Assembly (NCBI GenBank): GCA_027083135.1
Contig: JALWQH010000052.1
Coordinates: 43,591-107,590, forward strand
Direction of reading: 5' to 3'
DNA: 64,000 bases
From: Desulfurococcales archaeon
Lineage (GTDB): Archaea > Thermoproteota > Thermoprotei_A > Sulfolobales > WAQK01
This document shows positions 9,761-59,128 of the stretch, piece after piece. Numbering within the stretch: the stretch's first letter is position 1; each line of letters begins with the position of its first letter. A program made the position numbers and the translations under genes. A model generated the notes under the pieces. It saw only the letters and a list, made by a program, of their open reading frames with translations, was not told where the DNA came from and ran no database searches.

Positions 9761-11197
9761 TCATATTGTGTTATTTTTCTTGGTGTAGTAGTATGCTGCT
9801 GCTGGTATTATGATGATTATTATGATGGTTGCAGCCCAGAGGCCAGCAGTAGAAGCACCCCTCTCAACAGTCTTGGTCAATGTGCTTATGGAAAGCGTAC
9901 TGGATACAATGGTTCTTGTCACCGTGGTTGTCTTGCTAGTTGTTGTGCCTGTACTGCTAGTGGTGGTTTTGCTGTGAGTACTAGTGGTCGGCGTGCTCGT
10001 CGTGGTTTTCATGGTAGTTGTGGTGGTCTTGCTGGTTGTGGTGGTTCTACTTGTCGCAGTACTCGTAGTCGTAGTAGTCGTGGATGCAGTGCTACTAGTA
10101 GTCGTAGTAGAAGTAGTGGAAGAAGCAGCAGTACTCGTAGTCGTTGTAGTGGTGGTGCTTGGCGTTATTTTGCCTATGAGGGTATCGTATATGGCCTTCC
10201 ATATTAGGGGATCTCCTCCGTCAAGCCTCCATACAGCCACTCCGGGGAGCTTGTATTTTCTAGCTATGATGGCCTTGTAGACCACTGTTTCATGGTCGTT
10301 GTAATATATGGCTGTAGTACCTAGATCCAGGTATTTTTCCTTGTATGTCTGGTCGAATACGGGTTTCAATCCTCTCTCTTTGATTAGGTTGGAAATGTAG
10401 TCGTACATATGCCAGTCAACAAGTTTACCGTCTTTCGTCCACTCCCATCCATAGGATGGTATGCCCATCAGGAGCTTGTTTCTGGGAATATAGTTGAGGG
10501 CATATTTTACGCAGGCTTCAACCCAGCTTGGAGGTGCTACGGGTCTGGGGACTCCTTTAAGCTCATAGTAGTCGTAGGTCATTATCATAATGTAGTCTAC
10601 CCCTGATTGTCCAAGAGCCTTGTAATCGTATGCTCCTAGGAAGCTGTTAGTCGAATATGCCATGCGTTTTGCAGCCACATCTACTGTGAGCTTGAGGCCT
10701 GCCTTATGGAATACGTAGGCTAGTCTGCTTAGAAACTGGGCGAAAGTCTGAGCGTCTTCAAGCATAGGGGCTTCGAAATCTATGTTAAAGCCATTATACC
10801 CGTAGGTCTGTGCTATTTTTATCAGGGTGCTTGAGAAGTTATGGAAGGCTGCTGGATTAGTGAAAAGCTGATGCATTCTTTCAGGCACGTTGCTTACAAC
10901 CATTGGGTGAATCTTTATCCCATACTGGGAGGCCAGGTTGATCAGGTTTAGATCATTAGCACCGCGATCAGTGAATACCCCTATGCTTCCATTATCCTTG
11001 AGGACGAACCAATCGGGCGATATCCAGCTTATGTACTCATGGTTCTCCTTGATCACATCATATACCTGGGGAGTAACCTTGTAGATCCATGCTACTACTA
11101 GGGGCTTAGTCGAGCTGCTGGCTCCATAGGTTAGGTGTATTCCCGGTGCTAGGGAGATCATTATAAGGACAGCCAGCATACACGCATACTTGAACAC
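9761..11197 (-). CDS. Secreted/surface-anchored GH18-type glycosidase (YaaH/chitinase-like) with Thr/Ser-rich stalk and C-terminal TM
   Basis: Signal-like N-terminus, YGYNGFNIDFEAP (GH18 DxxDxE-like motif), IMIMTYDYYE, GIPSYGWEW, Thr-rich stalk, C-terminal TM helix. Confidence 0.8.
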   Translation of the reverse strand: MFKYACMLAVLIMISLAPGIHLTYGASSSTKPLVVAWIYKVTPQVYDVIKENHEYISWISPDWFVLKDNGSIGVFTDRGANDLNLINLASQYGIKIHPMVVSNVPERMHQLFTNPAAFHNFSSTLIKIAQTYGYNGFNIDFEAPMLEDAQTFAQFLSRLAYVFHKAGLKLTVDVAAKRMAYSTNSFLGAYDYKALGQSGVDYIMIMTYDYYELKGVPRPVAPPSWVEACVKYALNYIPRNKLLMGIPSYGWEWTKDGKLVDWHMYDYISNLIKERGLKPVFDQTYKEKYLDLGTTAIYYNDHETVVYKAIIARKYKLPGVAVWRLDGGDPLIWKAIYDTLIGKITPSTTTTTTTSTAASSTTSTTTTSSTASTTTTTTSTATSRTTTTSKTTTTTMKTTTSTPTTSTHSKTTTSSTGTTTSKTTTVTRTIVSSTLSISTLTKTVERGASTAGLWAATIIIIIIIPAAAYYYTKKNNTI

Positions 11198-11338
11198 AGC
11201 TCTACACCCTGATAGGATAGGGAGGGGTGAGTAAAGTATCTTGAATAATTACTTTACATGTATGGAACTTGTTGTTCTTGACACTACTTTATTTAGAGTC
11301 AGGGAATACGCTCTAAAAGAACAGGGTAATAGTGGGAG

Positions 11339-13255
11339 GTGTGTGGGTTCTTGATTAAGGATAGGATAAAAATAATCGGTATGAGTGTAATACTAGCAGT
11401 AATGCTGTTGTCCTTGATCTCCCCCTCCATAGCTCATGCACAGCAGAAAGAGACAGTATTGAAGGTTGGTATTCCTGGAGAGATCGATAACTTCAACCCG
11501 CTCATAGGGCTCTTCGGCGCAGCAGGCTATATTAGAGGCCTGCTGTTCGATACACTGCTCATAATGCCATCTAATAGGAGCTACTGCCCCTGGCTTGCTC
11601 AGAGTTGGACGGTTAACGAGAAGAACTTGACAATAACCTTTAAGCTCCGCCCCAACCTGAAATGGCATGACGGCCAGCCGCTGACAGCTAAGGATGTTGA
11701 GTTCACATTCAACCTAATCATAAACTCCAAGTACACGCCTAAGCTGGATAGATGGAACCTCCACAACTACATAGCCTATGTTAAGGCTATTGACAACCGT
11801 ACTGTGGTCTTCAAGCTGAAGGAGCCGTTTGCTCCTATCCTATGGTACATAGGCCTGTTAATACCTGTGCTACCCGAACATATTTGGAGCAAAGTTGATC
11901 CAACAACGTTTAAGAACACGGAGCATCCTATTGGAAGCGGTCCATTCAAGTTTGTGAAGTATACTCCAGGCGTATCAGTAGAGCTTGAGGCGTTCGATGA
12001 CTATTTTGCAGGCCGCCCCAAGATAGACAAGTTGATCATAGGACTATATAAGAGCACTGACAGCGTCCTGCTAGACCTTCAGGCAGGAGCCATAGACGCT
12101 ATTGCAGGCATGACTGTGGCCCCGGAGCTTGTGCCAACACTACTCAAGGATCCCCATATAAGAGTAGTGATAAGGCCTGACCTAGGATACATAAGGTTCA
12201 TGGGCTTCAACCTAGACAAATATCCCTTCAATGTGAGGGAGTTCAGGGAAGCCGTGGCATACGCCATAGATAAAGACTATATTGTTAAGACAGTTATGCT
12301 AGGATATGCTGACCCTGCAGCAGATGGCTGGGTTCAGCCGATCCAGGGCATATGGTATAATAAGGCCATAGGCTATAGGAAGCAGAATCTCACTAAGGCT
12401 ATGCAGATACTTGACTCCATAGGCTTCATAGATAGGGATGGAGACGGTATAAGGGAGACGCCTAATGGCACTAAGCTAGAGTTCACGCTGTTGACGCTGG
12501 CAGGCAGAACAGAGTTCGAGAGGACTGCTGAGATAATTGCAAACTGGCTTAACCAGATAGGAATAAAGGTGAAGGTTGAGGCCTATAGCCTTGGCACAGT
12601 AGACCATAAGGAGGGTGTAGGAGACTTCGACATGGGACTCATGGGTGTGGGAGGCCTTACAGCTGAGATAGATTACTATCTATACCCAAGGTTCCACAGC
12701 AGCGGCGCACCACCCATAGGCAAGTATGCGCCTAGAAACTGGTTTAGATATAGGAACCCTGAGGTAGACAAGCTGCTAGAGGAGCAGAGAACAGAGCTTA
12801 ACCTCACTAAGAGGATACAGATAGTCTACAAGATACAGGAGATCATAGCCCACGACATACCAGTAGTGACACTATATGTGAAGAGATATGTAACCGCCTA
12901 TAGGACTGACCGCTTCGTCAACTGGAATGAGAAGGAAGGACCTGCAAGCAAGCTATCACTACTGCAGGTTAAGCCTAGGGGGCCAGCAACAGTAACAACA
13001 ACTAAGACAGCCACCTCTGTGACAACCTCAGTTGTCACAACAAGCAAGGTCTACACAACTGTTGTAAAGACAACGATAAGCGGCACACCTACAACCGTTG
13101 TTAAGACCATGACCTCTGCCACAACCTATACGACCACAGTGCCAGTAACCTACACTAAGAAGACGGGGATAAGCACCGCTGCGGCCATAGGAATCGCAAT
13201 AATAATAGCAATAATTGCCGCAGCAATAGCATACTGGGCTGCTAAACGGGGATAA
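11339..13255 (+). CDS. ABC transporter family 5 (oligopeptide/dipeptide) substrate-binding protein, Thr-rich linker and C-terminal TM anchor
   Basis: WTVNEKNLTITFKLRPNLKWHDGQPLTAKDVEFTFNLI, HPIGSGPFKFVKY, FREAVAYAIDKDYI. Confidence 0.93.
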   Translation: MCGFLIKDRIKIIGMSVILAVMLLSLISPSIAHAQQKETVLKVGIPGEIDNFNPLIGLFGAAGYIRGLLFDTLLIMPSNRSYCPWLAQSWTVNEKNLTITFKLRPNLKWHDGQPLTAKDVEFTFNLIINSKYTPKLDRWNLHNYIAYVKAIDNRTVVFKLKEPFAPILWYIGLLIPVLPEHIWSKVDPTTFKNTEHPIGSGPFKFVKYTPGVSVELEAFDDYFAGRPKIDKLIIGLYKSTDSVLLDLQAGAIDAIAGMTVAPELVPTLLKDPHIRVVIRPDLGYIRFMGFNLDKYPFNVREFREAVAYAIDKDYIVKTVMLGYADPAADGWVQPIQGIWYNKAIGYRKQNLTKAMQILDSIGFIDRDGDGIRETPNGTKLEFTLLTLAGRTEFERTAEIIANWLNQIGIKVKVEAYSLGTVDHKEGVGDFDMGLMGVGGLTAEIDYYLYPRFHSSGAPPIGKYAPRNWFRYRNPEVDKLLEEQRTELNLTKRIQIVYKIQEIIAHDIPVVTLYVKRYVTAYRTDRFVNWNEKEGPASKLSLLQVKPRGPATVTTTKTATSVTTSVVTTSKVYTTVVKTTISGTPTTVVKTMTSATTYTTTVPVTYTKKTGISTAAAIGIAIIIAIIAAAIAYWAAKRG

Positions 13256-13266
13256 GATAGCCTGGT

Positions 13267-14256
13267 GTGAGGGAGACTCCCAAAATGCCATCCTCTTTTT
13301 TGGTACGGAGGTCAATTAGACTCATCATAACATTCTTCATTATAGTTATCCTAGACTTCCTTCTCCCCAGGCTTATGCCTGGAAACCCTGTGGCAATACT
13401 CGTCAAGCAGAGCGGGCTGCCGGACTCAGCTATCCAGCAGCTCACAAAGCAGTTTGAACTGGATAAACCTTTGTATGATCAGTTCATAGCATACATAGTT
13501 AACCTCTTCAAAGGTAACTGGGGGTATAGTTACAGGTATTATCCTACACCGGTGAAGGACCTGATATTTCAGAGGCTTCCATGGACGCTCCTGCTGCTCG
13601 GCACGTCCTCGATAACCGTCTTTCTCTTCGGCGTTTTTCAAGGCTTTCTGGCAGGATGGAGACATGGAACCAAGACTGATTCAACCATAACGCTCGTAGC
13701 GGTCCTAGTATACGCTATACCCTACTACTGGCTTGCACTAGTGCTTCAATACTTCTTCGGATACAAGCTTAAATGGCTGCCTACATCTCAGGCCTTAACG
13801 TTTGGAGCAGTATATCATAATTTCCTAGACTATGCCTTAGATGTGGCTCGGCACCTTGTGCTGCCTGTAACAGCTATAACGCTCACAGCATATGCTGCAT
13901 ACACGCTTGTTACGAGAAACACCATGATAGATGTGCTTGGAGAGGACTTCATAGTCACAGCTAAGGCTAAGGGTCTTCCTGAGAGGAAAGTTATGTGGCA
14001 TGCTGCTAGGAATGCTATGCTACCCCCTGTCACTATGCTGGCAATAAGGCTTGGACACATGGTTGGGGGAGCAGTATTCACGGAGACAGTGTTCTCGTAT
14101 CCCGGAGTAGGGCTACTCATCTATGAATCAATAATCTACAAAGACTACCCGGTGCTTAACGCTGCATTCTTCATTCTAGCTATAACCGTGATCATTGCCA
14201 ACTTCATAGCAGACCTGCTATATGCATGGCTTGACCCCAGGGTGAGATATAGATGA
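13267..14256 (+). CDS. ABC transporter permease (DppB/OppB-like)
   Basis: IVILDFLLPRLMPGNP, EDFIVTAKAKGLPERKVMWHAARNAMLPPVT. Confidence 0.93.
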   Translation: MRETPKMPSSFLVRRSIRLIITFFIIVILDFLLPRLMPGNPVAILVKQSGLPDSAIQQLTKQFELDKPLYDQFIAYIVNLFKGNWGYSYRYYPTPVKDLIFQRLPWTLLLLGTSSITVFLFGVFQGFLAGWRHGTKTDSTITLVAVLVYAIPYYWLALVLQYFFGYKLKWLPTSQALTFGAVYHNFLDYALDVARHLVLPVTAITLTAYAAYTLVTRNTMIDVLGEDFIVTAKAKGLPERKVMWHAARNAMLPPVTMLAIRLGHMVGGAVFTETVFSYPGVGLLIYESIIYKDYPVLNAAFFILAITVIIANFIADLLYAWLDPRVRYR

Positions 14257-15149
14257 CCAGGATCACGCTGAGCGAGGAGAGAAAGGAGAGCATTACCAAG
14301 CTTCTACATGGACTATACTATATCTTCATAAAGGATAAAAAGGGCTTACTAGGCTTCACCATAATTATGGGCTTCGCCATAATAGCTATCTTTGCTCCCC
14401 AGCTAGCCCCCTATAATCCGCGTGCAATGATTGGAAGGCCGTTTGAGCCTCCCAGCCACAAGCATCTCCTAGGAACCAATGATGTTGGGCAGGATATTCT
14501 CAGCGAAGTCATATATGGGACAAGGGTGAGCTTCTATGTGGGGCTGACAGCCCCTACGATATCCACTATAATAGGCCTTCTCCTAGGTCTGGCTGCAGGG
14601 TACATGGGTGGCAAGATCGATGAGCTTATCTCAGGCTCCATAGACGTGATGTTAGCCATACCTGGCTTACCATTAATCATAATACTTGCAGCGTATCTGG
14701 GGCAGAGCCTCAACAACATTATACTAGTATTAGCGATAACAGGCTGGGTAGGTGTGGCTAGAGTCGTACGATCTCAGGTTCTAAGCATAAAGGAAAGACT
14801 ATATGTTGAGGCTGCAAGAGCGGTAGGTGCAAGTGACTCTAGGATCATGCTTAACCACATTCTTCCCAACGTAATGCCCCTTATGGCTGCCTATGTGATC
14901 CTAGGGGCAACCAGCGCTATACTGACTGAGGCTGGGCTAAGCTTTCTAGGACTAGGCGATCCCACGGCTATTAGCTGGGGCCAGATACTTCACCATGCGC
15001 AAGTGAAGCATGCTCTTCAGCTTGGATTATGGTTGTGGGCCATAGTGCCAGGCTTAATGATAGCTCTAATGGGAATGGGCTTCACGCTGCTAGGCATGTC
15101 GATGGAGGAGTACCTTAACCCCAGGCTTAGAAGCTACCAGGCAGCCTAG
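14253..15149 (+). CDS. ABC transporter permease (DppC/OppC-like)
   Basis: HLLGTNDVGQDILSEVIYGTRVSFYVGL, YVEAARAVGASDSRIMLNHILPNVMP. Confidence 0.93.
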   Translation: MTRITLSEERKESITKLLHGLYYIFIKDKKGLLGFTIIMGFAIIAIFAPQLAPYNPRAMIGRPFEPPSHKHLLGTNDVGQDILSEVIYGTRVSFYVGLTAPTISTIIGLLLGLAAGYMGGKIDELISGSIDVMLAIPGLPLIIILAAYLGQSLNNIILVLAITGWVGVARVVRSQVLSIKERLYVEAARAVGASDSRIMLNHILPNVMPLMAAYVILGATSAILTEAGLSFLGLGDPTAISWGQILHHAQVKHALQLGLWLWAIVPGLMIALMGMGFTLLGMSMEEYLNPRLRSYQAA

Positions 15150-15151
15150 CC

Positions 15152-16690
15152 CTAATCATTAAAACAAGTATGTCCTGAAGGAAGTTTTTCGCTTAAAGTT
15201 ATGGGTAGCCTGCCTTTAGGCCTGCATCTCCCTTTAATCAGGTTGAAGAGCGCTTTCAGGGAACAATACCTGTAGCTGTAAGCTGCTACTACAACCTTAT
15301 ATCCGCTTAGATCTACTTGTCTAAGCCACACAGGATTTCCAAGCGATACCAGCATCCATCCTCTGGGCGGAAGCCTTGATAAATCCCCGGCCGAATAGAA
15401 TAACACTATCATTCTCTCAGGCTCTAGTTTCCCTGCACCTAGCCTGACGCACTCAGCCTTTATTCCCGTCTCACGAGCGATGCCGCACGCCGATATAACT
15501 CCTCCGGCTCCTGCTACGGGTGAAGGGGCGTTAAGCCTAGGAGGATAGGTTATCAGAGGCTTTGAGGGAGGATTACCGAGTTTGCTGCATCCTCTAATTA
15601 CCGTGAGAGCCCTGCAGGCCTGCTCAACGCATTTTTCAACATGTTTCTTGGAGCCTACTATTTCTTCAGGCCTGCTTGAAGGCTTTATTCTTAGCCGCTT
15701 GGCCAGCATCTCCCTCCTAGTAATGCTGGCCTTCAGCCTATCCTCATCTACGTCTCCTCTCAGAACCAGTTTAAGCATTCTGTCATAGGCTCTCTTCTGA
15801 ACCCTGAGCGTATGGGAGAACATTATTATGTCTAGGCCTGCCTTTAATGCCAGGTCTACTATCTGCTCTGGAGTATACCTGGATGCCACGGCCTTCATCT
15901 CCATGCAGTCTGATACTATTAGGCCGTTAAACCCCATGTCTCTAACCATGTTTACAGCCCTGGCCGAGAGACTTGCAGGAACCTTTGAGTCAATCGCATC
16001 CACGAGTATGTGTCCAAGCATGACTGCATCAACTCCTCTCCGCACAGCGTATCTGAAGGGGGCTACATGCTCCTCCAGCTCTAATGCACTTAGCCTCACC
16101 CTAGGTAGATCATAGTGTGAATCAATGATCGTTGATCCATGGCCGGGGAAATGCTTGGCAGTAGCACCTACGCCTGAGGAGTGCAGCCCTTCTATGAAGG
16201 CTGCCCCCAGCTTTGATACGAGTTCAGGGTTCTCTCCAAAGCTTCTTTCGCTCACAACGCTGCTTTCAGGCTCCTTAAGCACATCGAGGACTGGTGCCAG
16301 ATCTAAGTTTATACCCATTGCTGCAAGCTCTCTTCCAATGATCCCTCCAGCCTGCCTCGCCTCGCTCTCCAAGCCTATAGCCCCTAAAGCCATGTTTCCA
16401 GGCATAGGTGTAGTGTACCTAGGCATTCTGAGAACCATTCCACCCTCCTGGTCAACCATTATGAGGGCTCCGCTAAGCCCCCGGCTCCTCACGTGCTCAT
16501 CAATGCTTCTAGTGAGAATTGAGACCTGCCGAGGATCTCGGAGATTCCTATTGAATAAGACTATGTTAGGTATATTCCACTCGGCAATGACCCGGCGTGC
16601 ATGATCGTCTTTCAGGCTTACTCCATCGAAGCCGAAGGCAAGCATACTACCCGCAATATCCTCGGGTTCAAAAATACCCGTGGACCTCAC
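15152..16690 (-). CDS. GH3 beta-N-acetylhexosaminidase (NagZ-like)
   Basis: MVDQEGG, NLDLAPVLDV, RSFGENP, KHFPGHGSTIIDSHYDLP (NagZ-type Asp-His dyad), GLIVSDCMEMKAV. Confidence 0.88.
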   Translation of the reverse strand: MRSTGIFEPEDIAGSMLAFGFDGVSLKDDHARRVIAEWNIPNIVLFNRNLRDPRQVSILTRSIDEHVRSRGLSGALIMVDQEGGMVLRMPRYTTPMPGNMALGAIGLESEARQAGGIIGRELAAMGINLDLAPVLDVLKEPESSVVSERSFGENPELVSKLGAAFIEGLHSSGVGATAKHFPGHGSTIIDSHYDLPRVRLSALELEEHVAPFRYAVRRGVDAVMLGHILVDAIDSKVPASLSARAVNMVRDMGFNGLIVSDCMEMKAVASRYTPEQIVDLALKAGLDIIMFSHTLRVQKRAYDRMLKLVLRGDVDEDRLKASITRREMLAKRLRIKPSSRPEEIVGSKKHVEKCVEQACRALTVIRGCSKLGNPPSKPLITYPPRLNAPSPVAGAGGVISACGIARETGIKAECVRLGAGKLEPERMIVLFYSAGDLSRLPPRGWMLVSLGNPVWLRQVDLSGYKVVVAAYSYRYCSLKALFNLIKGRCRPKGRLPITLSEKLPSGHTCFND

Positions 16691-16694
16691 CTCT

Positions 16695-16716
16695 CATGCA
16701 CAGTATACTGTGCATG
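16695..16716. promoter_or_regulatory. Perfect 22-bp palindrome (candidate operator) between divergent genes
   Basis: CATGCACAGTATACTGTGCATG equals its own reverse complement. Confidence 0.6.
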
Positions 16717-16772
16717 CTATTTTGCTTTTAATTTTATATGCCATGCTACATTAGGTTTTTACATGGGTTACA

Positions 16773-17744
16773 ATGCTTGTAGAAACACGTAAGGTTATAT
16801 CGGCTGGCAGGCGCTCCAGAGCCGTAACGCTCCCTAAGAAATGGGTTGTTGAGCACGGGGTGAAGCCCGGAGACCCTATGGAAATAGTGCTAGAGGAGGA
16901 CGGCTCTCTTAGAATACGGCCGTTGAAGACCTCTCCAGCCACACCCATGGTAAGCGAGGTATTCGTAGAGAAGCCTGGCAGCAATGTCAACGATATAGTG
17001 TTCACGCTGATAGGATACTATGTTAATGGGTATAATGTGGTGGTGATGCCTCCATCCCCGCAGGTATATGAGGCTCTCTCCAGGCTTGAAGACATGCTTA
17101 TAGGAGTATTATACATTGATCTAGGAGAGCAGGTCAAGGTTAAATTCATAGTCTCGGAGGGTAAGATAGGATCGTACGAGATAGCATCAAGGCTTGCAGG
17201 CCTGCTTTCAAGGCTCTCCAGCAAATATATGGATTCCCTGGAAACAGGTAGCATGATGGACCTCAATGATGTTCTCCGCATTGAAAGCGAGGTTGACAGG
17301 CTATATTATTTAGGACTAAGAGTACTTAACACCGAGCTTACTAGAAGCATAGCTGAATGGCATATCAAGGAGTATGTCAGGCTCTCATCGATGAGAGTAG
17401 CGCTTAAAGTCATGGAGGATATATCTGATGCTTTTGACCGTAGCACTAGGACAATACTTAGACTAGGCTTAGGCATAGTGAGTGAAGAATACCTTAAGAT
17501 ACTGAGAAGCGTCTCTAAAATAGTGGTTGATGCTGCCCAATCCTTCCTGGAGCTAGATAGACTCAAGGCTAGCAGAATACTTAAACTCAGAATAGATGTG
17601 AAGAAAGATCTAGTCGAATTCAAGAAAAAAGCATCTGTTGAAACTCAGATGCTTATATCAGAGCTTGAAATAATGCTGGCTCTAGCAGCAGATCTAGCTG
17701 AAATAGCCATAATGGATTCCATAACAAGCAGAAAGCATGCATAA
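16773..17744 (+). CDS. PhoU-like regulator with N-terminal AbrB/SpoVT-type DNA-binding domain
   Basis: RKVISAGRRSRAVTLPKKWVVEHGVKPGDPMEIVLEEDGSLRI followed by PhoU-like helical repeats. Confidence 0.82.
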   Translation: MLVETRKVISAGRRSRAVTLPKKWVVEHGVKPGDPMEIVLEEDGSLRIRPLKTSPATPMVSEVFVEKPGSNVNDIVFTLIGYYVNGYNVVVMPPSPQVYEALSRLEDMLIGVLYIDLGEQVKVKFIVSEGKIGSYEIASRLAGLLSRLSSKYMDSLETGSMMDLNDVLRIESEVDRLYYLGLRVLNTELTRSIAEWHIKEYVRLSSMRVALKVMEDISDAFDRSTRTILRLGLGIVSEEYLKILRSVSKIVVDAAQSFLELDRLKASRILKLRIDVKKDLVEFKKKASVETQMLISELEIMLALAADLAEIAIMDSITSRKHA

Positions 17745-17954
17745 GGATAAAGGGAGCCTACCTACAAGTACACTAGCATACAGACCTTTAGCCTCCTCTT
17801 ATGCGAGTACTATTCAATTCAACAAAACATGGATCCTCCGATTACAACTAGGTATAAAATGCAGAGATGCCGGTGGGAGTAGCCTGCAGGATGCAGGAAG
17901 CGGAAAATAGTATAATAAACACATGCATATCATGTTTCAGGGAAGGGTGGAATC

Positions 17955-19751
17955 ATGGACGCCCGTCTAGCCGCATCTGTGGCAATAATAGTGTTAATAA
18001 TAGTAGCTTCTGCTTCAGCCATATATCTCCGGTCTCGTAGAACGGCATCCACGACAACTTCAAGCAGTCCGAGTAGCCTGCCTCCTTCCACAATTACCTC
18101 AACTACAAGTACATCTATGGCTGCGCGTACAAGTACGTATAGTACGAGAACCACTACTAGCACTACTATCACGACAACCACTATATCATCATCGAGCACC
18201 ACTACAACTACTCATACTACTCCGAGTCCAACTACTACCATGACAACTAAAACACCAACATTCACCACAACCAGCACCACCACGATGACCAGTACTACAA
18301 CCACTATCTCGAAACCCAGCCTCTCCCAATACCTTGCTAGGCAGATCAACGGGCTGCTTGAACTCTACCCTGAACTCAATCTTAACGCAACAGGCATACT
18401 TATCACCACTCTGAACGGAACAGTATTGTACTCGCTTCACCCCCATGAACCTCTCATACCAGCATCAAACATGAAGCTCCTAACAGCAGCGGCGGCTTTA
18501 AAGTACCTTGGGCCAGACTATAAGTTCAAGACGGTCTTCATAGTCACAGGGAAAATCGAGAACTCCACGCTTCACGGAGACATAATAGTTAGAGGCACAG
18601 GGGATCCCACCCTTGTTAGCGGCGATTGGGCTGATGAATGGTCACATAAGGTTGCCTACCTCTACGATACTGAGCACCTCTTAGATGATGCTGTGAAGCC
18701 CTTAGAGAAGCTAGGAATAAAGCGTATCGATGGAAACATAATAATAGATGACTACTACCTTGACCACCAGTGGGTTAACCCTACCTGGGAGAAGGAGGAT
18801 CTCTCACACTGGTATGCTGCTCAGATAGGGGCCCTTGGAATAAACAGGAATATCGAGCTGCTTGAACTATACCCGCAGCCTTCAGGCAAGGTCAAAATAA
18901 AAGTCGTGCCTGACGTCGGCTACATCAACGTGACCTTCGCTGGAAGAGTAGTGAAGAGCAGCAGCGATGTAAAACAGTGGGCTGTAGAGGTCAGAGAGCC
19001 TGGGACAAATAATGTTAAAATAGTCGGAGATCTTCCCATGGATATAGATGTCTACTACCTATCTGTAACGGTTAATGATCCAGGTATGTATTTTGGAGCA
19101 GTATTCAAGAAGGTCCTAGAGGATCATGGGATAAAGGTTATGGGAGGAGTCAAGCGGGCTAATACTACTGGGTGGAAGAATCAGACGATCACTGTGATAA
19201 CTCTTCAATCAAAGCCTCTTAAAGATATTATAAGATTAATGCTTAAGAAGAGCCTTAATCTCTACGCAGACCACCTCTTCAAAGTTCTAGGAAAAGTAGT
19301 GGTAGGCGAGGGCTCCTGGAAGGGAGGCTCTAAGGCTGTGGAAAAAATGCTGAGGGATCTGAGCATAATGGAGGATGGAGTTAAAATAGTTGATGGTTCA
19401 GGGCTCTCCAGGGAGAACAGGGTTACTCCAAGCCTCCTAGTAAATTTGCTGCGCATATATGCAGGTAATAAGATCCTCTATAATTCCCTGCCCATAGCAG
19501 GCTGGGACGGCACGCTTAAGCATAGGATGCTGGACACCCCTGCTGAGGGTAACTTAAGGGCTAAGACAGGAACCCTCACAGGAGTATCAGCTCTTAGCGG
19601 CTATGTTAAAACCAGGGATAATGTAACACTAGTATTCTCAATGCTGTTCAACGGCTTCCATGCAACAGCGCACAAGGTTAAATACGAAATAGAGGACTAT
19701 ATAGGGGCTCTTCTAGCAGACATAAATACATCTAAGTACAAGGTGCCCTAA
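17955..19751 (+). CDS. S13-family D-Ala-D-Ala carboxypeptidase/PBP4-like protein with N-terminal TM and Thr/Ser-rich stalk
   Basis: Active-site motifs SNMK (SxxK), KKSLNLYADHLFK (SxN), AKTGTLTGVSALSGY (KTG). Confidence 0.9.
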   Translation: MDARLAASVAIIVLIIVASASAIYLRSRRTASTTTSSSPSSLPPSTITSTTSTSMAARTSTYSTRTTTSTTITTTTISSSSTTTTTHTTPSPTTTMTTKTPTFTTTSTTTMTSTTTTISKPSLSQYLARQINGLLELYPELNLNATGILITTLNGTVLYSLHPHEPLIPASNMKLLTAAAALKYLGPDYKFKTVFIVTGKIENSTLHGDIIVRGTGDPTLVSGDWADEWSHKVAYLYDTEHLLDDAVKPLEKLGIKRIDGNIIIDDYYLDHQWVNPTWEKEDLSHWYAAQIGALGINRNIELLELYPQPSGKVKIKVVPDVGYINVTFAGRVVKSSSDVKQWAVEVREPGTNNVKIVGDLPMDIDVYYLSVTVNDPGMYFGAVFKKVLEDHGIKVMGGVKRANTTGWKNQTITVITLQSKPLKDIIRLMLKKSLNLYADHLFKVLGKVVVGEGSWKGGSKAVEKMLRDLSIMEDGVKIVDGSGLSRENRVTPSLLVNLLRIYAGNKILYNSLPIAGWDGTLKHRMLDTPAEGNLRAKTGTLTGVSALSGYVKTRDNVTLVFSMLFNGFHATAHKVKYEIEDYIGALLADINTSKYKVP

Positions 19752-24762: not shown

Positions 24763-25575
24763 ATGTTCTTCAATCCTCTTGATAGGAAGCCTATAGGTAG
24801 AAGCGGCGAGCATGTGTCTGCTATTGGTATAGGTACCTGGGGCATTAGGGATTATGGCAGGGCTGAGGACACGTTAGCAATGCTTCCCGAGTACGGCATA
24901 GATAATATAGATACTGCGGAGATGTATGGTGGGGGATTAGCTGAGAGGCTTGTGGGAAGAGTTCTAAGGAGAGTTGGCAGGGATAGGTTATTCATAACCA
25001 CTAAGATGCTGCCCTACCATCTCTCCTCAAGGGATGAAGTAATATCTGCTGCTAAAGCCTCGCTTAAAAGGCTTGGCGTAAGCCAGGTGGATCTATATCT
25101 AATACACTGGCCTAATAGGGAGATCCCTATTTCAACACAGGTTAGGAATTTTGAGGCGGTGTATGAGGAAGGTTACGCCAGGTATATTGGGGTCAGCAAC
25201 TTTGATGTCGGAGAGCTTGAGGAGGCTATGCATTCAACCAGGATAGCTGAGATAGTTGTTGACCAGGTTCGCTACAGTATTCTGAGACGGGATGTAGAGT
25301 GTTCTCTCCTCCCATACGCGGTGAGAGAGGGCATCACTCTGCAGGCATACACCCCCCTCGAGCATGGAGCCGTGGCTAGCCATGAGGCTGTGATCAAGGC
25401 TGCTAGAAGAGTTGGAAAAACACCTATACAGGTTGCATTAAACTACCTTATATCTAAGCCTAGGGTGATAGCCATACCTAAAACTGAGGATCCGGGGCAT
25501 CTAAGAGAGATTGCTGGCTCCATGGGTTGGCGGCTTCCAGCAGATCTGCTGGAAGCGCTCTCACATATTGTTTGA
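24763..25575 (+). CDS. Aldo/keto reductase
   Basis: IGIGTWGIRDYG, NIDTAEMYGGGLAERLVG, DLYLIHWPN, IGVSNFDV. Confidence 0.94.
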   Translation: MFFNPLDRKPIGRSGEHVSAIGIGTWGIRDYGRAEDTLAMLPEYGIDNIDTAEMYGGGLAERLVGRVLRRVGRDRLFITTKMLPYHLSSRDEVISAAKASLKRLGVSQVDLYLIHWPNREIPISTQVRNFEAVYEEGYARYIGVSNFDVGELEEAMHSTRIAEIVVDQVRYSILRRDVECSLLPYAVREGITLQAYTPLEHGAVASHEAVIKAARRVGKTPIQVALNYLISKPRVIAIPKTEDPGHLREIAGSMGWRLPADLLEALSHIV

Positions 25576-27528
25576 TGAGGCCTCTCCTAATAGATGCTTG
25601 TCGAACCATTCTTTTATCGCCTTAATCCTTGCCACTCTTCTCCTAGGCTTGCCGCTGCGGCTTAGATTATGGTTCTCCTCTGGGAACAACAGCATTTTAA
25701 CTTCAACTCCCTTCTCCTTTAGTGCTGTGTATAGTTGTAGTGCTTGGTCTAGCCAGCATCTATAGTCTTCTAGGCTGTGTATTATTAGGAGGGGCGTCTC
25801 AACACCATCAACATACCTCAAAGGACTCCTAAACCAATACTCCTCATGACTACGCCATGGCGGTAGACCTCTCCCAATCTGCTCCTTATTATAGTAGAAG
25901 CCTATGTCGGTTGTCCCATACTTGCTTGTCCAGTTGCTTATGGATCTCTGGGTGACTGCTGCTTTGAACCTGTTGGTGTGGCCTATGATCCAGTTCGTCA
26001 TAAAGCCCCCATAACTACCACCAGCAACCCCTGCCTTACCAGGATCAAGCCCTATGCCTACCATGGCATCATACACGTCCATGAGATCCTGATAATCCTT
26101 GTCTCCGTATCCTCCCCTAATATCAGCGAACTCCTCACTATAACCGTCGCTCCCCCTAGGGTTTGGTAGGATGAGGGTATAGCCTGCGCCGCTAAGCACG
26201 TGGTATTCATGCATGAAGCCGCATCCATGCATCATCTTAGGGCCTCCATGAATGTAAAGTACCCATGCTCCATTAGGCTTTACAGCTGGCTCCAGGATCC
26301 AGGCATCTATGCTGAGCCCATCCCTCGTTCTAACATCTATGCGTCTCTGCCTCCCCAAAACTCTGCGCTTAACCCAGGTCTCAGTGTGCCTGGTAAGCCT
26401 CTTAGCCTCGCCTCCTTCCAGCAGGTATAGTTCTTTAGGGGATGCTGGATCCATGTAGGTGTATGCTAGTACCCTCCTTCCAGCTGAAAACTCGTCCACT
26501 ACGCCGCAGTCTGGGGTGATCACAGGTTCCACTTCTCCCTCAGGGCTGGCTCTGTAGAGATGCGTTCTCCCCGCATCTGAGATTTGAAAGTATATCCACT
26601 TGTCCTCAGGCCATGCAATGTTTTTAGAGCAGGAGGGGCCTCGCACATCGCTTCCAGCAGTATTAAGAGCATTTCTCCTAAGCCTACATGTAACGCATTT
26701 AGCCTCACGGCCTCTAAGGTTGATCACATGTACCTTGTAGTGGGATGCGAAGCCTTTCCCAAAGCTCCTAGCAATAACCGCAAGCATGTCTCCCCGAGGG
26801 CTCCACTCTATTGATACAATGGAGTATCCTTCCAGCAGCCTCTCCTCGGAACCTGTTTCAAGGTCAAGCACCATGAGTCTCTGTAAGTGGGGCTTAAGCT
26901 CATCATAGGTTCTCGCATAGGCTATCTTACCTCCATTGGGGCTTACAGCGTAGGAGGATATGTCGAAGGATCCGTGAACCAGCTCCTCTATCCTGCCTGA
27001 AGGCACCTCAACCCTATAGAGACCTGTAAACCTGTCGAAGATGAATCCCTCCCCGTTAAACCATACGGGGAGCCTGGAGACCTCCAATACATCCCTGTCA
27101 CGATAATCCTTCCATCCCCCTCCTCCTAGGGGAGCTCTGCTTAAAGCATAGATAAACCTGCCTTCAGGATCCCATGAGAGGCTGCTTGCCCCATGCCTAA
27201 TTACTGCAAGCTTCCATGCCTCCCCTCCCTCCCTACGTATAAGCATAATCTCTGATCCCTTTCCATCATCAGGGCTTCTAAGAAATGCCAGCATAGTTCC
27301 ATTAGGATTCCAGGCTGGACACTTATCGCTGGTTCCTCCAGTTAAAGGCCAGGTCTCTCCACCGTGATCTACGAGCCATATGGATGACTCGTACCTATTC
27401 TTATCCAGGTTGATCCTTGTTAAAATGTAGGCTGTTAGCCTTTGATCAGGGCTTAGAACAGGGTTTGAAACTAGAGGCAGCTCGCCTAGATCCTCTGCTT
27501 TAACCGTGTTCTCAGCCAATATCCTCAC
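25561..27528 (-). CDS. S9C-type acylaminoacyl-peptidase/prolyl oligopeptidase
   Basis: YIHGGPKMMHG, GGSYGGFMTNW nucleophile elbow, HSLEDYRCWLDQALQLYTALK, beta-propeller N-terminus. Confidence 0.93.
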   Translation of the reverse strand: MRILAENTVKAEDLGELPLVSNPVLSPDQRLTAYILTRINLDKNRYESSIWLVDHGGETWPLTGGTSDKCPAWNPNGTMLAFLRSPDDGKGSEIMLIRREGGEAWKLAVIRHGASSLSWDPEGRFIYALSRAPLGGGGWKDYRDRDVLEVSRLPVWFNGEGFIFDRFTGLYRVEVPSGRIEELVHGSFDISSYAVSPNGGKIAYARTYDELKPHLQRLMVLDLETGSEERLLEGYSIVSIEWSPRGDMLAVIARSFGKGFASHYKVHVINLRGREAKCVTCRLRRNALNTAGSDVRGPSCSKNIAWPEDKWIYFQISDAGRTHLYRASPEGEVEPVITPDCGVVDEFSAGRRVLAYTYMDPASPKELYLLEGGEAKRLTRHTETWVKRRVLGRQRRIDVRTRDGLSIDAWILEPAVKPNGAWVLYIHGGPKMMHGCGFMHEYHVLSGAGYTLILPNPRGSDGYSEEFADIRGGYGDKDYQDLMDVYDAMVGIGLDPGKAGVAGGSYGGFMTNWIIGHTNRFKAAVTQRSISNWTSKYGTTDIGFYYNKEQIGRGLPPWRSHEEYWFRSPLRYVDGVETPLLIIHSLEDYRCWLDQALQLYTALKEKGVEVKMLLFPEENHNLSRSGKPRRRVARIKAIKEWFDKHLLGEASSNNM

Positions 27529-29408
27529 CTTTCCTCGTGGTGCTCGAGCCCCAGCTTCTCACGGAGCCAGCGGATCTTATACTCGTATCTTTTCCTACGG
27601 TGCCTGGGTTCAGCAAGCCTGCTGTGCCCGTGGCTTCCCTTAGTGAATACTAGTAGTGTTGTATCCTTCCCCCTCATGGCCAGTGAGACATGCATTGAAA
27701 GGGCCTGGTCTATGAAGCACCTATAATCCTCCAAGCTATGTATGAAGAGTATGGGTGTCTCCACATCATCGACGTGGAATGCAGGGCTCTTCTCCAAATA
27801 GCCTCTTAGATTATCATGGGGAGTACCGCCTATTTGGTCAGGATCAAACCAGTAGCCTATATCACTTGCCCAGTAATCAGCAATCCAGTCTCCTATGCCG
27901 TTCTCGCTCACCGCTGCCTTAAACCTCTTGGTCTTGGTCACCATGACATTCGTCATGTATCCGCCATAACTTATCCCTGTTACAGCCATCCTATCCTCAT
28001 CGATCCAGCCTTCATAATTCTCTAGGACTTTATCTAAGAAGGCCATGAGCTGTGCGTAGTCTTTGTCTCCGTATCCTCCCCTAATATCAGCGAACTCCTC
28101 ACTATAACCTGTGCTTCCACGGGGATTCGCGTAGGCGACTGCAAAGCCTTGTGAAACCATTAGTTGCATCTCGGGGTGGAAGAAGTAGCCGTACATTCCT
28201 TTAGGCCCGCCATGCACGTAGAGTATGAGGGGGTGCTTCCCATTCTTCTCGGGCAGCATAATCCACCCATCCACCCTATCTCCACCATGCTCTACTACTA
28301 GATGCTGGGGCTCGATCAGCCGCCTCTCCTTTACAATCCATTCATTAAACCTCGTCACGCCTACGCGTCTTCCATCAGCATGCAAGTATACTTCAGGAGG
28401 CCTTGTAGGAGATGATGCTATGAAGCCTGTCACCCCGGAGTTGCTGTGGGCTTCATGCACATATTCCCCGTGCTTAGTGATAGGTTCCACAGCGTCATCG
28501 GACACTGAGGCCAGCAGGCTTGAACCAGCATCCTCGTAGACTATTAGAGGCTTATGATCAAGGCTTCCAGCAATACTCCTAACATTTCTGTCCAGCATCC
28601 TGCATGTAAGGCATACAGGCTTCTCATCAAGCATCCATAACTTGTGATGTGAGGATATGCCTATCTCGCCCCTATGCATGAGGGCATGCAGCCTGCCCTC
28701 CAGGCATCTTAACATTGATATAGAGTAGCCTTTAAGCACCTCTTCTTCAGAGCCGTCCGTCACATTGATCTTCACAAGCCTATGCCTCGTAGGATCACGC
28801 CAGTCAATCGGCTCAGCGTAGAACACTGTTTCCCTGCATGCTTCGGCAGCCACTATTATGTTGGGGGAGGAGGCTAGGAGCCTTGTCCTCCCCGACCAAA
28901 CGTCTAGGAGCCTTACCTCGTAGCTAAGACCTGCTATAAGCCCCTCCCTGTCGAACCATAATGGAAGCCTATCAGTAGCCACGTAGTCGCCATCCTCATC
29001 GTAGAAGCCCTTCCTTGGGGCAGGGGCAACTATAAGCAGCGACCCCTCACTAAACCATTCCAAATGCTTGACACCATGCTTAAACCATGCCAGCCTCCTA
29101 GGCTCCCCTACACCGCTCCACAGGAAGACTCCTACACCCTTCTCCTCCTCTCTTACCCCCCGCCTACTAGTGAAGGCAAGCATATTCCCGCTTGGACTCC
29201 ATCTAGGCTTCGAGTCTCCCTTACCTGTCAGGAAGGCTTTAGCCCCGTCTTTACGGATAATGTGCACCTCAGTGTAGTTCTCGTTTTTGGCGAGATCGCT
29301 TCTAGAAGCTATGAATACCAGATCCCCCTTAGCTGAAACCCTTACATCTGACGGTATTATGAGGCTTAAAATATCCTCAACCGATAAGCCTGGCTTCATA
29401 CCTGTCAT
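27525..29408 (-). CDS. S9 family peptidase, tandem paralogue of 25561-27528
   Basis: YVHGGPKGMYGYFF, GISYGGYMTNVMV, HSLEDYRCFIDQALS; 4-bp overlap with the next gene. Confidence 0.92.
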   Translation of the reverse strand: MTGMKPGLSVEDILSLIIPSDVRVSAKGDLVFIASRSDLAKNENYTEVHIIRKDGAKAFLTGKGDSKPRWSPSGNMLAFTSRRGVREEEKGVGVFLWSGVGEPRRLAWFKHGVKHLEWFSEGSLLIVAPAPRKGFYDEDGDYVATDRLPLWFDREGLIAGLSYEVRLLDVWSGRTRLLASSPNIIVAAEACRETVFYAEPIDWRDPTRHRLVKINVTDGSEEEVLKGYSISMLRCLEGRLHALMHRGEIGISSHHKLWMLDEKPVCLTCRMLDRNVRSIAGSLDHKPLIVYEDAGSSLLASVSDDAVEPITKHGEYVHEAHSNSGVTGFIASSPTRPPEVYLHADGRRVGVTRFNEWIVKERRLIEPQHLVVEHGGDRVDGWIMLPEKNGKHPLILYVHGGPKGMYGYFFHPEMQLMVSQGFAVAYANPRGSTGYSEEFADIRGGYGDKDYAQLMAFLDKVLENYEGWIDEDRMAVTGISYGGYMTNVMVTKTKRFKAAVSENGIGDWIADYWASDIGYWFDPDQIGGTPHDNLRGYLEKSPAFHVDDVETPILFIHSLEDYRCFIDQALSMHVSLAMRGKDTTLLVFTKGSHGHSRLAEPRHRRKRYEYKIRWLREKLGLEHHEER

Positions 29409-40056: not shown

Positions 40057-42630
40057 TTGGCTGAAACCAGGGTCTACATGGTCTTCCCCGTTGGCTATGC
40101 TCATATAGATAGTGAGTGGCTGTGGGGGTTGGAGGAGGCGCTTGAAGCCTGCAGGCTCACTTTCGAGAACACGCTGAGATTGATGGGGAAGCATGACTTC
40201 ATCTTCGCTGAGGGCTCCTCCCTATACTACGAGTTCCTGGAGAAACGTTACCCTAGTATTTATGGTAGGGTATTGGAGGAGGCGCGTAAGGGGCGTTGGA
40301 GGATCTCCGCTGCCTCCTACCTGGAGTTTGATGCTAATATGCCGTCAGGCGAGTCTCTGCTGAGGCATCTCCTCTATGGTTCAATGTACTTTAATAGGCG
40401 TGGCCTTTCAGCCCAGGTGTTCTTCCTACCTGACTCCTTCGGCTTTCCAGCCACTCTCCCTAAGATCCTGGCAGGCTTCGGGGTTAGATTCTTCGCCACA
40501 TATAAGCTGAGCTGGAATGACACCAATGAGCCACGCTATAATGCCTTCCTATGGCGTAGTCCTGGAGGATACGAGGTGCTGGCATACTTGCTGCCTGGAA
40601 GCTATAGCGACTATCTGTCAAGCATTAGGAGGATACTCTTGAACATTCATACGCAGGTGAAGAAGCAGGGGATACCGGTGGTTCTCCAGGTCTTTGGAAG
40701 AGGGGATCATGGGGGAGGCCCCGAGGAGGAGGAGCTCCTCAACTTAGAGGAGTGGCGTGGGAGACATTCGTCCCTCCTAAACATCACTAGGGGTGGCATG
40801 GAGGAGTTCTTCAAGTATCTTGACAAGCATCGCGGCAGGCTGCCAGTCATAAATGATGAGCTGTACCTGGAGTTTCACCGCGGGGCCTTCACTACAGGTA
40901 GGCTGGCTAAAAAGCTGAACAGGCTTAATGAGAGCCTAGTATTAGAGGCTGAGAAGCTCTTCTCCCTTCTTGAAACCCTAGGCTGGGCTGAATACCCTGA
41001 GGACAGGCTGCATGGAATCTGGGAGATGATCCTGGTTAGCCAGGGCCATGATGCACTCCCAGCAACAGTGACAAGGGGCGTCTATGGTAATGTTGTTCGA
41101 AGGGGGGTAGAGTCATACAGGTTGCTGTTAAACATTATTCACAGAGGCTTAGAGGAGGCGGCAGGGAAAACCTGCTCCAAGTACATTGTCTTCAATCCTC
41201 ACAGCTGGAGTTCCTCCACTTACATAAGGGTTAAAGAAAGGCTTAGCGGGATCCACCAGGAGCTGGGCGACGGTTCAAGCCTAGTCTACGTGGATAATAT
41301 GCCTCCACTGGGATTCAAGGCTTATAGAGAGCCTGGAGACAAGCCTAGAGGCAAAGTGAGGGCCTGGAGGAGCGGGGAAAACTATGTGCTTGAAAACGAG
41401 CATATAAGGGCAATTATCTCAGCCAGTAAGGGGTGGATTACAAGCATATATGATAAGGCTAATGAACGCGAGGTTTTAAGGGGTCCTATTAGGCTGCGGG
41501 TGATGTGGGACTACCCGACGCCGCTTAGATGGTCGGCTGCACCTGCAGTCCTCTTTGATGCATGGGAAGCCTACTATAATGAGGGTTTAAACAAGTATTT
41601 CCACAGGGATTTAAAGGCTTATAGAAGCTTCATCTCTGAGAAAGGGCCTCTCTACGCCTCCATCACCATGATGTACAGGTATAGGCAGCCTCTCGCAGGG
41701 AGCTCGGTATTCGAGGTAGAGGCAGGATTATATGCTGGTAAGCCCTACCTGGAGCTCAGGTTCAAGGCTTATTGGAGGGCGCGTCACAGGTTCTTGAAGC
41801 TCCTAATACCCCTTAATACTGGTTCAAAGGAAGCCTTGTTTGAAACACCTTACGGTGCTGTGAGGAGGATGGATTCATGCCTAACCCGTAACCCTGTTAA
41901 TAAGGCTAGATACGAGGTCTGCGGGCATAGATGGGTTGATGTATCAGACAGGGATCATGGTACCGCGGTGATTAACGACTCAATATACGGGTTCAGCTGG
42001 TGTAACAGGGTGCTGGGAGTAAGCCTGCTGAGGGCCCCCACCCCTCCCGAGAGAGAAGTATTAATGAGACTGGTAGAGGAGAACAAGAAGATGCAGGCAG
42101 AGTTCAGGGATATTAGCCTGCGACGCTCAGGTAAGGCTAGGAGGCTTGCATTAGCCATCACATTATGGCTCCAGTCAGCCGTCCGAGAGCTTCTATATTC
42201 AAGTAAGCTTAAACCAGTAGACCAGGGCTACCATACAGCCACTATATGGATATACCCCCATAGAGGAGACTACGTTAAAGGAGAAGTCGCTACGTACGCA
42301 GCAGAACTCAATACACCCTATATAATGCATAGGCATGAGGGCTACATGAATGGAGTTAACGAGGGGTTCAGTCTTCTTGAAGTTAAGCCTAGTCACGTTC
42401 AACTCGTAGCGGTAAAGCCATGTGAACACATGAAATGCCTTGCAGCAAGATTGTTTAATACATCATACAAGAGCCTCAGAGCACAGATAATATTAACTGG
42501 GAAAATTAGGAGTATTCAGGAAGCCAGTCATGCTGAGACACCCGTAAGAAAGCCCCAAGTATTGAAAGGAGAAACTTTCACCATGGAATTCAAGCCCTAT
42601 GAAGTTAAGACCATTCTATTGCGGTTATAG
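40057..42630 (+). CDS. GH38 alpha-mannosidase-like glycoside hydrolase
   Basis: GYAHIDSEWLWGLEEAL, FFLPDSFGFPATLPKIL, WEMILVSQGHDALPATV. Confidence 0.88.
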   Translation: MAETRVYMVFPVGYAHIDSEWLWGLEEALEACRLTFENTLRLMGKHDFIFAEGSSLYYEFLEKRYPSIYGRVLEEARKGRWRISAASYLEFDANMPSGESLLRHLLYGSMYFNRRGLSAQVFFLPDSFGFPATLPKILAGFGVRFFATYKLSWNDTNEPRYNAFLWRSPGGYEVLAYLLPGSYSDYLSSIRRILLNIHTQVKKQGIPVVLQVFGRGDHGGGPEEEELLNLEEWRGRHSSLLNITRGGMEEFFKYLDKHRGRLPVINDELYLEFHRGAFTTGRLAKKLNRLNESLVLEAEKLFSLLETLGWAEYPEDRLHGIWEMILVSQGHDALPATVTRGVYGNVVRRGVESYRLLLNIIHRGLEEAAGKTCSKYIVFNPHSWSSSTYIRVKERLSGIHQELGDGSSLVYVDNMPPLGFKAYREPGDKPRGKVRAWRSGENYVLENEHIRAIISASKGWITSIYDKANEREVLRGPIRLRVMWDYPTPLRWSAAPAVLFDAWEAYYNEGLNKYFHRDLKAYRSFISEKGPLYASITMMYRYRQPLAGSSVFEVEAGLYAGKPYLELRFKAYWRARHRFLKLLIPLNTGSKEALFETPYGAVRRMDSCLTRNPVNKARYEVCGHRWVDVSDRDHGTAVINDSIYGFSWCNRVLGVSLLRAPTPPEREVLMRLVEENKKMQAEFRDISLRRSGKARRLALAITLWLQSAVRELLYSSKLKPVDQGYHTATIWIYPHRGDYVKGEVATYAAELNTPYIMHRHEGYMNGVNEGFSLLEVKPSHVQLVAVKPCEHMKCLAARLFNTSYKSLRAQIILTGKIRSIQEASHAETPVRKPQVLKGETFTMEFKPYEVKTILLRL

Positions 42631-59115: not shown

Positions 59116-59128
59116 CCCCTGCCTACAC

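Follow-up and report, generated by a model that had tools for sequence, protein, structure and literature searches.

Predicted Surface and Uptake Genes of a Probable Murein-Scavenging Pathway in a Sulfolobales Archaeon

Gene Content of the Locus

The genome of a Desulfurococcales archaeon (GenBank assembly GCA_027083135.1), placed in the order Sulfolobales by GTDB, comprises 1.75 Mb in 57 contigs and is 99.6% complete. The window, i.e., the whole 64,000-nucleotide stretch analysed here, lies on its contig C52 (JALWQH010000052.1) and carries, between positions 9761 and 19751, a group of genes for glycosidases, a carboxypeptidase, transport proteins and a regulator. All genes listed for this region in an original prediction, made from the DNA sequence, are open frames at the coordinates given below, and their family matches are far above chance. 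By predicted topology, the locus splits into a surface or membrane part, consisting of a GH18 glycosidase, a solute-binding protein (SBP), an S13 carboxypeptidase and two permeases, and a cytoplasmic part, consisting of a GH3 glycosidase and the regulator. The Thr/Ser-rich stalks and transmembrane (TM) anchors ascribed to GH18, SBP and S13 in the original prediction are indeed predicted for all three. Relatives were sought among 229 genomes of the class, including the present one.

The gene at 9761–11197 (minus strand) encodes a GH18 glycosidase that belongs to the YaaH/SleL/YdhD type and is predicted to be displayed at the surface (PF00704, E = 3e-27). Its motif NGFNIDFE, with GFNIDFE at residue 136, is of the DxxDxDxE type and keeps the catalytic DxE. 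In addition to a stalk with up to 88% Ser/Thr, the protein shows a hydrophobic segment at the N-terminus and a TM segment at the C-terminus. Among solved structures it is closest to 5jh8, 4wiw, YdhD, YaaH and a cortical-lytic enzyme, which rank ahead of most classical chitinases; several of these nearest ones are spore-wall enzymes, and the ChiA/ChiB-type chitinases are far off. The stalk and the C-terminal anchor are matched at 65–94% identity by several other stretches of the same genome (contigs C17, C20 and C21), as if surface proteins had exchanged anchors.

Across a divergent intergenic region with the inverted repeat GTAAAGTA..TACTTTAC (11231–11257), a possible regulatory site, lies the gene of a family-5 (Opp/Dpp) SBP (11339–13255, plus strand; SBP_bac_5, PF00496, E = 6e-91), a protein with a stalk and, as in GH18, a hydrophobic segment at the N-terminus and a TM segment at the C-terminus. 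It is followed by an OppB-like permease (13267–14256, plus strand; BPD_transp_1, PF00528, E = 2e-41) and an OppC-like permease (14253–15149, plus strand; PF00528, E = 3e-29, with OppC_N), the orthologs of which adjoin the SBP ortholog in relatives. The ABC oligopeptide system originally proposed is thus present as SBP and both permeases but has no ATPase gene at the locus, and a complete Opp/Dpp importer would include ATPases; in one relative, ATPase genes adjoin another, different Opp operon. Because the orthologous transporter operon includes a BadF-type (N-acetylglucosamine-kinase-like) sugar kinase in two relatives, what is imported may not be plain oligopeptides but muropeptides or amino sugars, and the SBP is a candidate binder of either of the latter.

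The S13 gene (17955–19751, plus strand; PF02113, E = 4e-106) encodes a predicted surface DD-carboxypeptidase/endopeptidase of the PBP4/DacC type. The complete SxxK/SxN/KTG set claimed for it was confirmed as SNMK171, SLN433 and KTG537. Its best solved relatives are DacC (1w5d) and PBP4 of E. coli (2ex2), with which it shares the full domain, and it scores 315 bits against TIGR00666 (PBP4), the cut-off being 107.8. It differs from them in having an N-terminal TM segment and a long Thr/Ser stalk, up to 80% Ser/Thr, and in belonging to a host without murein. Pfam recognised no wall-binding domain in either GH18 or S13.

The GH3 gene (15152–16690, minus strand; PF00933, E = 1e-71) encodes a NagZ-like beta-N-acetylglucosaminidase. 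The protein has neither a signal sequence nor a TM segment and should therefore be cytoplasmic. The KHFPGHGxxxxDSH dyad is present as KHFPGHGSTIIDSH at residue 179, and the best solved relatives are GH3 N-acetylglucosaminidases, with 6k5j at the top, and YbbD/NagZ of B. subtilis. The assignment to NagZ holds as far as the dyad and the N-acetylglucosaminidase-type domain are concerned; the score of 189 bits falls below the cut-off of 207 bits of the NCBIfam beta-N-acetylhexosaminidase equivalog PRK05337, and the protein is therefore called NagZ-like.

The regulator gene (16773–17744, plus strand) is divergent from that of GH3. The AbrB half of the PhoU/AbrB regulator that had been predicted is supported by an AbrB/MazE domain (PF04014, E = 1e-11). 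The PhoU half has no match in Pfam; it is supported by an AlphaFold2 model (confidence score pLDDT 87), the C-terminal half of which finds PhoU proteins as its best PDB matches. A perfect 22-bp palindrome, CATGCACAGTATACTGTGCATG (16695–16716), located between the GH3 and regulator genes, is a candidate operator. No other close copy of it is present in the window or in the pathway loci L076 and L114, and therefore no regulon was drawn.

Candidate Genes for the Intracellular Steps

Several muramic-acid- or murein-specific families are encoded elsewhere in the same genome. A cluster on contig C43 comprises the genes of AnmK, a member of the anhydro-N-acetylmuramic acid (anhydro-MurNAc) kinase family, an S12 protein, a SIS-domain protein and NagA; GlmS lies one gene beyond. 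The exo-beta-N-acetylmuramidase family protein NamZ is encoded on contig C9. AnmK matches PF03702 with E = 1e-93 and, of the NCBIfam AnmK models, clears the cut-off in one case (452 vs. 387) and stays below it in others. NagA is above its model cut-off, PBP4B is the best named model for the S12 protein, and NamZ scores 184 bits for NamZ_N and 137 bits for NamZ_C (cut-offs 27 and 25). Since the contigs bearing the AnmK cluster and NamZ also carry EF-2-like and thermosome-like genes, they are archaeal, and bacterial contamination is unlikely.

At 12 of 14 positions conserved in bacterial AnmK homologs, a set annotated by homology, and different in levoglucosan kinase, the protein of the present genome agrees with AnmK; the TGA motif close to the C-terminus is among these matches. 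These diagnostic residues are an indication, not proof, of an AnmK, and the context with NagA and S12 favours anhydro-MurNAc as the substrate. In a tree built by a quick method without bootstrap, 13 Sulfolobales sequences and two further sequences from archaeal metagenome-assembled genomes (MAGs) form one clade (SH-like approximate likelihood ratio test, 99) among bacterial sequences. Because the AnmK proteins of genomes G007–G010 and of Bathyarchaeota stand apart from this clade, more than one transfer from bacteria is suggested. On a contig of a Brockarchaeota MAG (L130), AnmK is nested beside that of the Desulfurococcales MAG EvPrim.Bin15, reflecting either a recent transfer or mis-binning.

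MurQ takes lactate off C3 of MurNAc 6-phosphate (MurNAc-6-P). True MurQ was found in only two of the class genomes, G009 and G010. A SIS protein of the PRK02947/UPF0309 family is above cut-off in all 13 Sulfolobales genomes with AnmK. The match of the present SIS protein to NagS spans its length (158 bits), and the protein's model, with a pLDDT of only 69, also matches MurQ structures. Eight of the nine active-site residues of NagS are invariant in eight archaeal SIS proteins; the ninth, N228, is replaced by His in the present one. NagS (SCO4393), a relative of MurQ, is a dehydratase of N-acetylglucosamine 6-phosphate (GlcNAc-6-P) that acts between C2 and C3; homologs of it outside Streptomycetaceae, at about 30% identity, are reported to be without NagS activity (PMC12680351). 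The archaeal SIS gene differs from that of NagS in being grouped with AnmK and NagA, and because of this grouping MurNAc-6-P is suggested as the substrate; the NagS-like protein is accordingly named here as the predicted replacement of MurQ.

Distribution and Linkage in Relatives

The window gene set is not conserved as one unit among the class genomes. Co-occurrence in other Thermoproteota, named with the original prediction as a check, was found in relatives for the SBP, GH18 and the regulator family, which occur with AnmK/NamZ genes, and not for the exact set: full-length S13 is present in two of 229 genomes (the present one and G146) and NagZ-like GH3 in three (the present one, G009 and G010). 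AnmK occurs in 17 genomes, among them the present one and all those with strong matches for GH18 (5/5), S13 (2/2) or NagZ (3/3). Nine of the 11 genomes with NamZ also have AnmK (p = 3e-10). Among the AnmK carriers are Zestosphaera tikiterensis NZ3 and Desulfurococcaceae archaeon AG1.

SBP orthologs with 57–72% identity are found in 10 other genomes, the remaining homologs being at most 39% identical. All 11 genomes with the SBP ortholog encode AnmK or NamZ, which are present in 19 of the 229 genomes (p = 4e-14; p = 5e-13 without the present genome), and at the genus level the association with the SBP gives p = 2e-7 for both AnmK and GH18. GH18 orthologs, counted only above ca. 220 bits since many weaker matches are matches of the Thr/Ser stalk, were found at 40–44% identity in G146, G139, G171 and G020. 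In G146 (Desulfurococcales MAG KUA_Bin18) the GH18 domain is part of a 909-aa protein (L057:7834–10563) in which a TM segment is followed by GH18, Amidase_2 (N-acetylmuramoyl-L-alanine amidase) and GHL10.

The genes are also physically linked in several genomes. A single contig of G018 carries the blocks regulator-SBP-OppB-OppC-BadF kinase and GH84-SIS-S12-AnmK-NagA-GlmS, and the same two blocks lie on separate contigs in G019. On one contig of G017 are found GH84, NamZ, BadF kinase, SIS, SBP, OppB, OppC, regulator, AnmK and S12. GH18 adjoins an SBP 72% identical to that of the window in G139, and G020 has the arrangement GH18-GH84-AnmK-regulator. Within ca. 20 kb of G146 the GH18-Amidase_2 fusion is accompanied by an Opp system with ATPases, M19 dipeptidase, ROK kinase, SIS and NamZ. 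One contig of G010 encodes NagZ, the murein LD-carboxypeptidase S66 and M19 dipeptidase, with true MurQ elsewhere in the genome, and a Bathyarchaeota contig carries NamZ-NagA-AnmK. Additionally, SBP orthologs of G146, G148, G150 and G151 lie near genes of PxpA/PxpB/PxpC-like proteins (5-oxoprolinase), a nitrilase-like protein and an SSS symporter, these neighbours (L222, L223, L224 and L225) having been identified by eye.

Homologs of the regulator are located near SIS, AnmK, SBP or GH18 genes in relatives, and beside such hits in G146 and G020. In seven pathway genomes (G021, G139 and G147–G151) they are at most ca. 3.4 kb from a SIS gene; in none of the other genomes with which these were compared are the two as close. 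The module is probably under the control of the AbrB-PhoU protein.

Comparison with Known Systems

Bacterial recycling systems include NamZ/YbbC and NagZ/YbbD of the B. subtilis murQ region, murQ-murP-yfeW of E. coli and the AnmK-MurQ-NagA route. Like them, the present genome has NamZ, a NagZ-like GH3, AnmK, a PBP4B-like S12 protein and NagA; S12 adjoins AnmK here just as yfeW adjoins murQ in E. coli. In contrast to the bacteria, the archaeal host is expected to be murein-free, and because it should make no murein itself, scavenging rather than recycling is proposed. Further differences are the NagS-like SIS protein in place of MurQ, which Sulfolobales lack, import by an Opp-type ABC system and not by AmpG or MurP, and the display of catalytic ectoenzymes on Thr/Ser stalks.

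The archaeal peptidoglycan hydrolases described by Strock et al. in 2025, in the only study of such enzymes that was found, are modular proteins with wall-binding domains, killing was tested in haloarchaea, the choice between a scavenging and a killing role was left open, and Thermoproteota are unmentioned in the main text (PMC12352652). The two systems have in common that murein-active families are displayed by archaea. In the one considered here, however, an importer and an intracellular MurNAc pathway are present. By Pfam, neither GH18 nor S13 of the window combines its catalytic domain with a wall-binding one, and the GH18 of G146 is joined instead to Amidase_2 and GHL10. No report of archaeal AnmK, NamZ or MurNAc catabolism was found in the open-access literature.

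Probable Murein Scavenging and Its Alternatives

The locus can be regarded, with fairly good confidence, as the extracellular and uptake module of a murein scavenging pathway. Murein scavenging is the best reading because muramic-acid-specific families are present in a genome expected to be murein-free and are tied to the importer and GH18 of the window. The case for it is built on the genes present, on their catalytic motifs and predicted topology, and on co-occurrence and linkage. Of the three roles originally envisaged, the scavenging of bacterial walls is strongly supported, since the genome also encodes AnmK, NamZ, a PBP4B-like protein and NagA and since, in relatives, the SBP, GH18 and regulator family of the window co-occur and are linked with such genes. 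Attack on bacteria is a possibility taken up below, and the evidence speaks against turnover of an archaeal surface glycan, the partner families being specific for muramic acid or murein cross-links. Membership of S13 and the NagZ-like GH3 in the pathway, suggested by adjacency and known family function, is less certain.

In the pathway proposed, surface GH18 would cut the glycan strands of bacterial wall debris and surface S13 would open or trim their D-Ala cross-links. The stalked SBP with OppBC would import the fragments, using ATPases encoded elsewhere. In the cytoplasm, the NagZ-like GH3 and NamZ would take N-acetylglucosamine (GlcNAc) and MurNAc off non-reducing ends, and the PBP4B-like S12 protein might act on the peptide or a related bond. 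AnmK would then phosphorylate 1,6-anhydro-MurNAc to MurNAc-6-P, the NagS-like SIS protein would eliminate D-lactate instead of MurQ, and NagA and GlmS-family enzymes would pass glucosamine 6-phosphate to central metabolism. Substrates, flux and regulation, as well as the etherase role of the SIS protein, are predicted from sequence.

Several observations weigh against murein scavenging. A search of the genome for full-length MurQ returned only partial, weak SIS matches, and an Amidase_2-type MurNAc-L-Ala amidase was searched for there and not found; each of the other salvage steps has a candidate, that for the etherase being only predicted. Among solved structures, AnmK scores higher against levoglucosan kinase (254 bits) than against AnmK (188 bits); the levoglucosan kinase function raised by this ranking is judged unlikely in view of the diagnostic residues and the neighbouring genes. 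S13 and the NagZ-like GH3 are too rare for statistics of their own (p = 0.07 for S13 without the present genome), the hypergeometric tests of co-occurrence handle shared ancestry by collapsing to genera only, and G227 and G228, of the same family as the present genome, are without the system. The AbrB-PhoU family (77 genomes) is wider than the pathway, and the SIS family is above cut-off in 40 of the 229 genomes, many of them without AnmK; both were dropped as pathway markers, the former as too widespread and the latter as a superset of the pathway genomes.

Use of chitin, chitooligosaccharides or the GlcNAc of N-glycans would have GH18 cutting a GlcNAc polymer, the ABC system importing chitobiose-like sugars, and GH3, GH84, BadF kinase and NagA processing GlcNAc. 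All of these enzymes act on GlcNAc, the best solved match of GH3 (6k5j) is an N-acetylglucosaminidase, that of GH18 is annotated as a probable chitinase, and NagS, a characterised member of the SIS family, acts on GlcNAc-6-P (PMC12680351). Such a function is nevertheless unlikely, as it accounts for the GlcNAc-acting part only and leaves unexplained AnmK, NamZ, the PBP4B-like S12, S13, the GH18-Amidase_2 fusion and the MurQ and LdcA of relatives. Even less is to be said for an antibacterial weapon, in which surface GH18 and S13 would damage living competitors and uptake would be secondary: archaeal peptidoglycan hydrolases able to kill bacteria are known (PMC12352652), and surface display and a patchy distribution would suit this role, but the window proteins are anchored and have no recognisable wall-binding domains, and the conserved part, an intracellular MurNAc pathway with an importer, points to nutrition.

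It is also improbable, slightly more so than a weapon, that the peptide importer, GH18, GH3 and S13 are unrelated neighbours, transferred separately and without joint function. The rarity of S13 and the NagZ-like GH3, which do not travel together, would fit, whereas the SBP, GH18 and AnmK/NamZ co-occur over several genera, with linkage in several genomes. The least credible of these explanations is that the archaeon turns over or remodels its own surface glycan or S-layer glycoprotein. The N-glycans of Thermoproteota can have a chitobiose core, which GH18 or GH3 could attack, and the enzymes are predicted to be at the cell surface; however, S-layers are general, yet two other genomes of the same family and more than 90% of the class are without the system, and the MurNAc-specific partners would remain unexplained.

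Other Features of the Window

Two adjacent genes of the S9 prolyl-oligopeptidase family are located at 25561–29408; with the M24, M32 and M20 peptidases that the window also encodes, they suggest a peptide-feeding heterotroph. A further glycan-degrading enzyme, a complete GH38 alpha-mannosidase, is encoded 20 kb from the locus (40057–42630). It is also worth mentioning a tandem pair of MoeA-family genes (55898–59172), the product of one of which has a C-terminal PBP-like domain (PF12727).

Implications

Bacterial cell walls constitute a large pool of organic matter, and an importer combined with an intracellular MurNAc route in organisms expected to be murein-free points to feeding on it. For the NagS-like SIS protein, a function is predicted for an uncharacterised family. 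The analysis names genes for testing in thermophilic archaea, as well as candidate heat-stable murein enzymes. On a broader scale, Sulfolobales and some other archaea may live partly on bacterial murein by means of a dedicated MurNAc pathway of bacterial origin, with a NagS-like (UPF0309/PRK02947) SIS protein serving instead of MurQ as the MurNAc-6-phosphate lyase, a generalisation for and against which the balance seems to us even.

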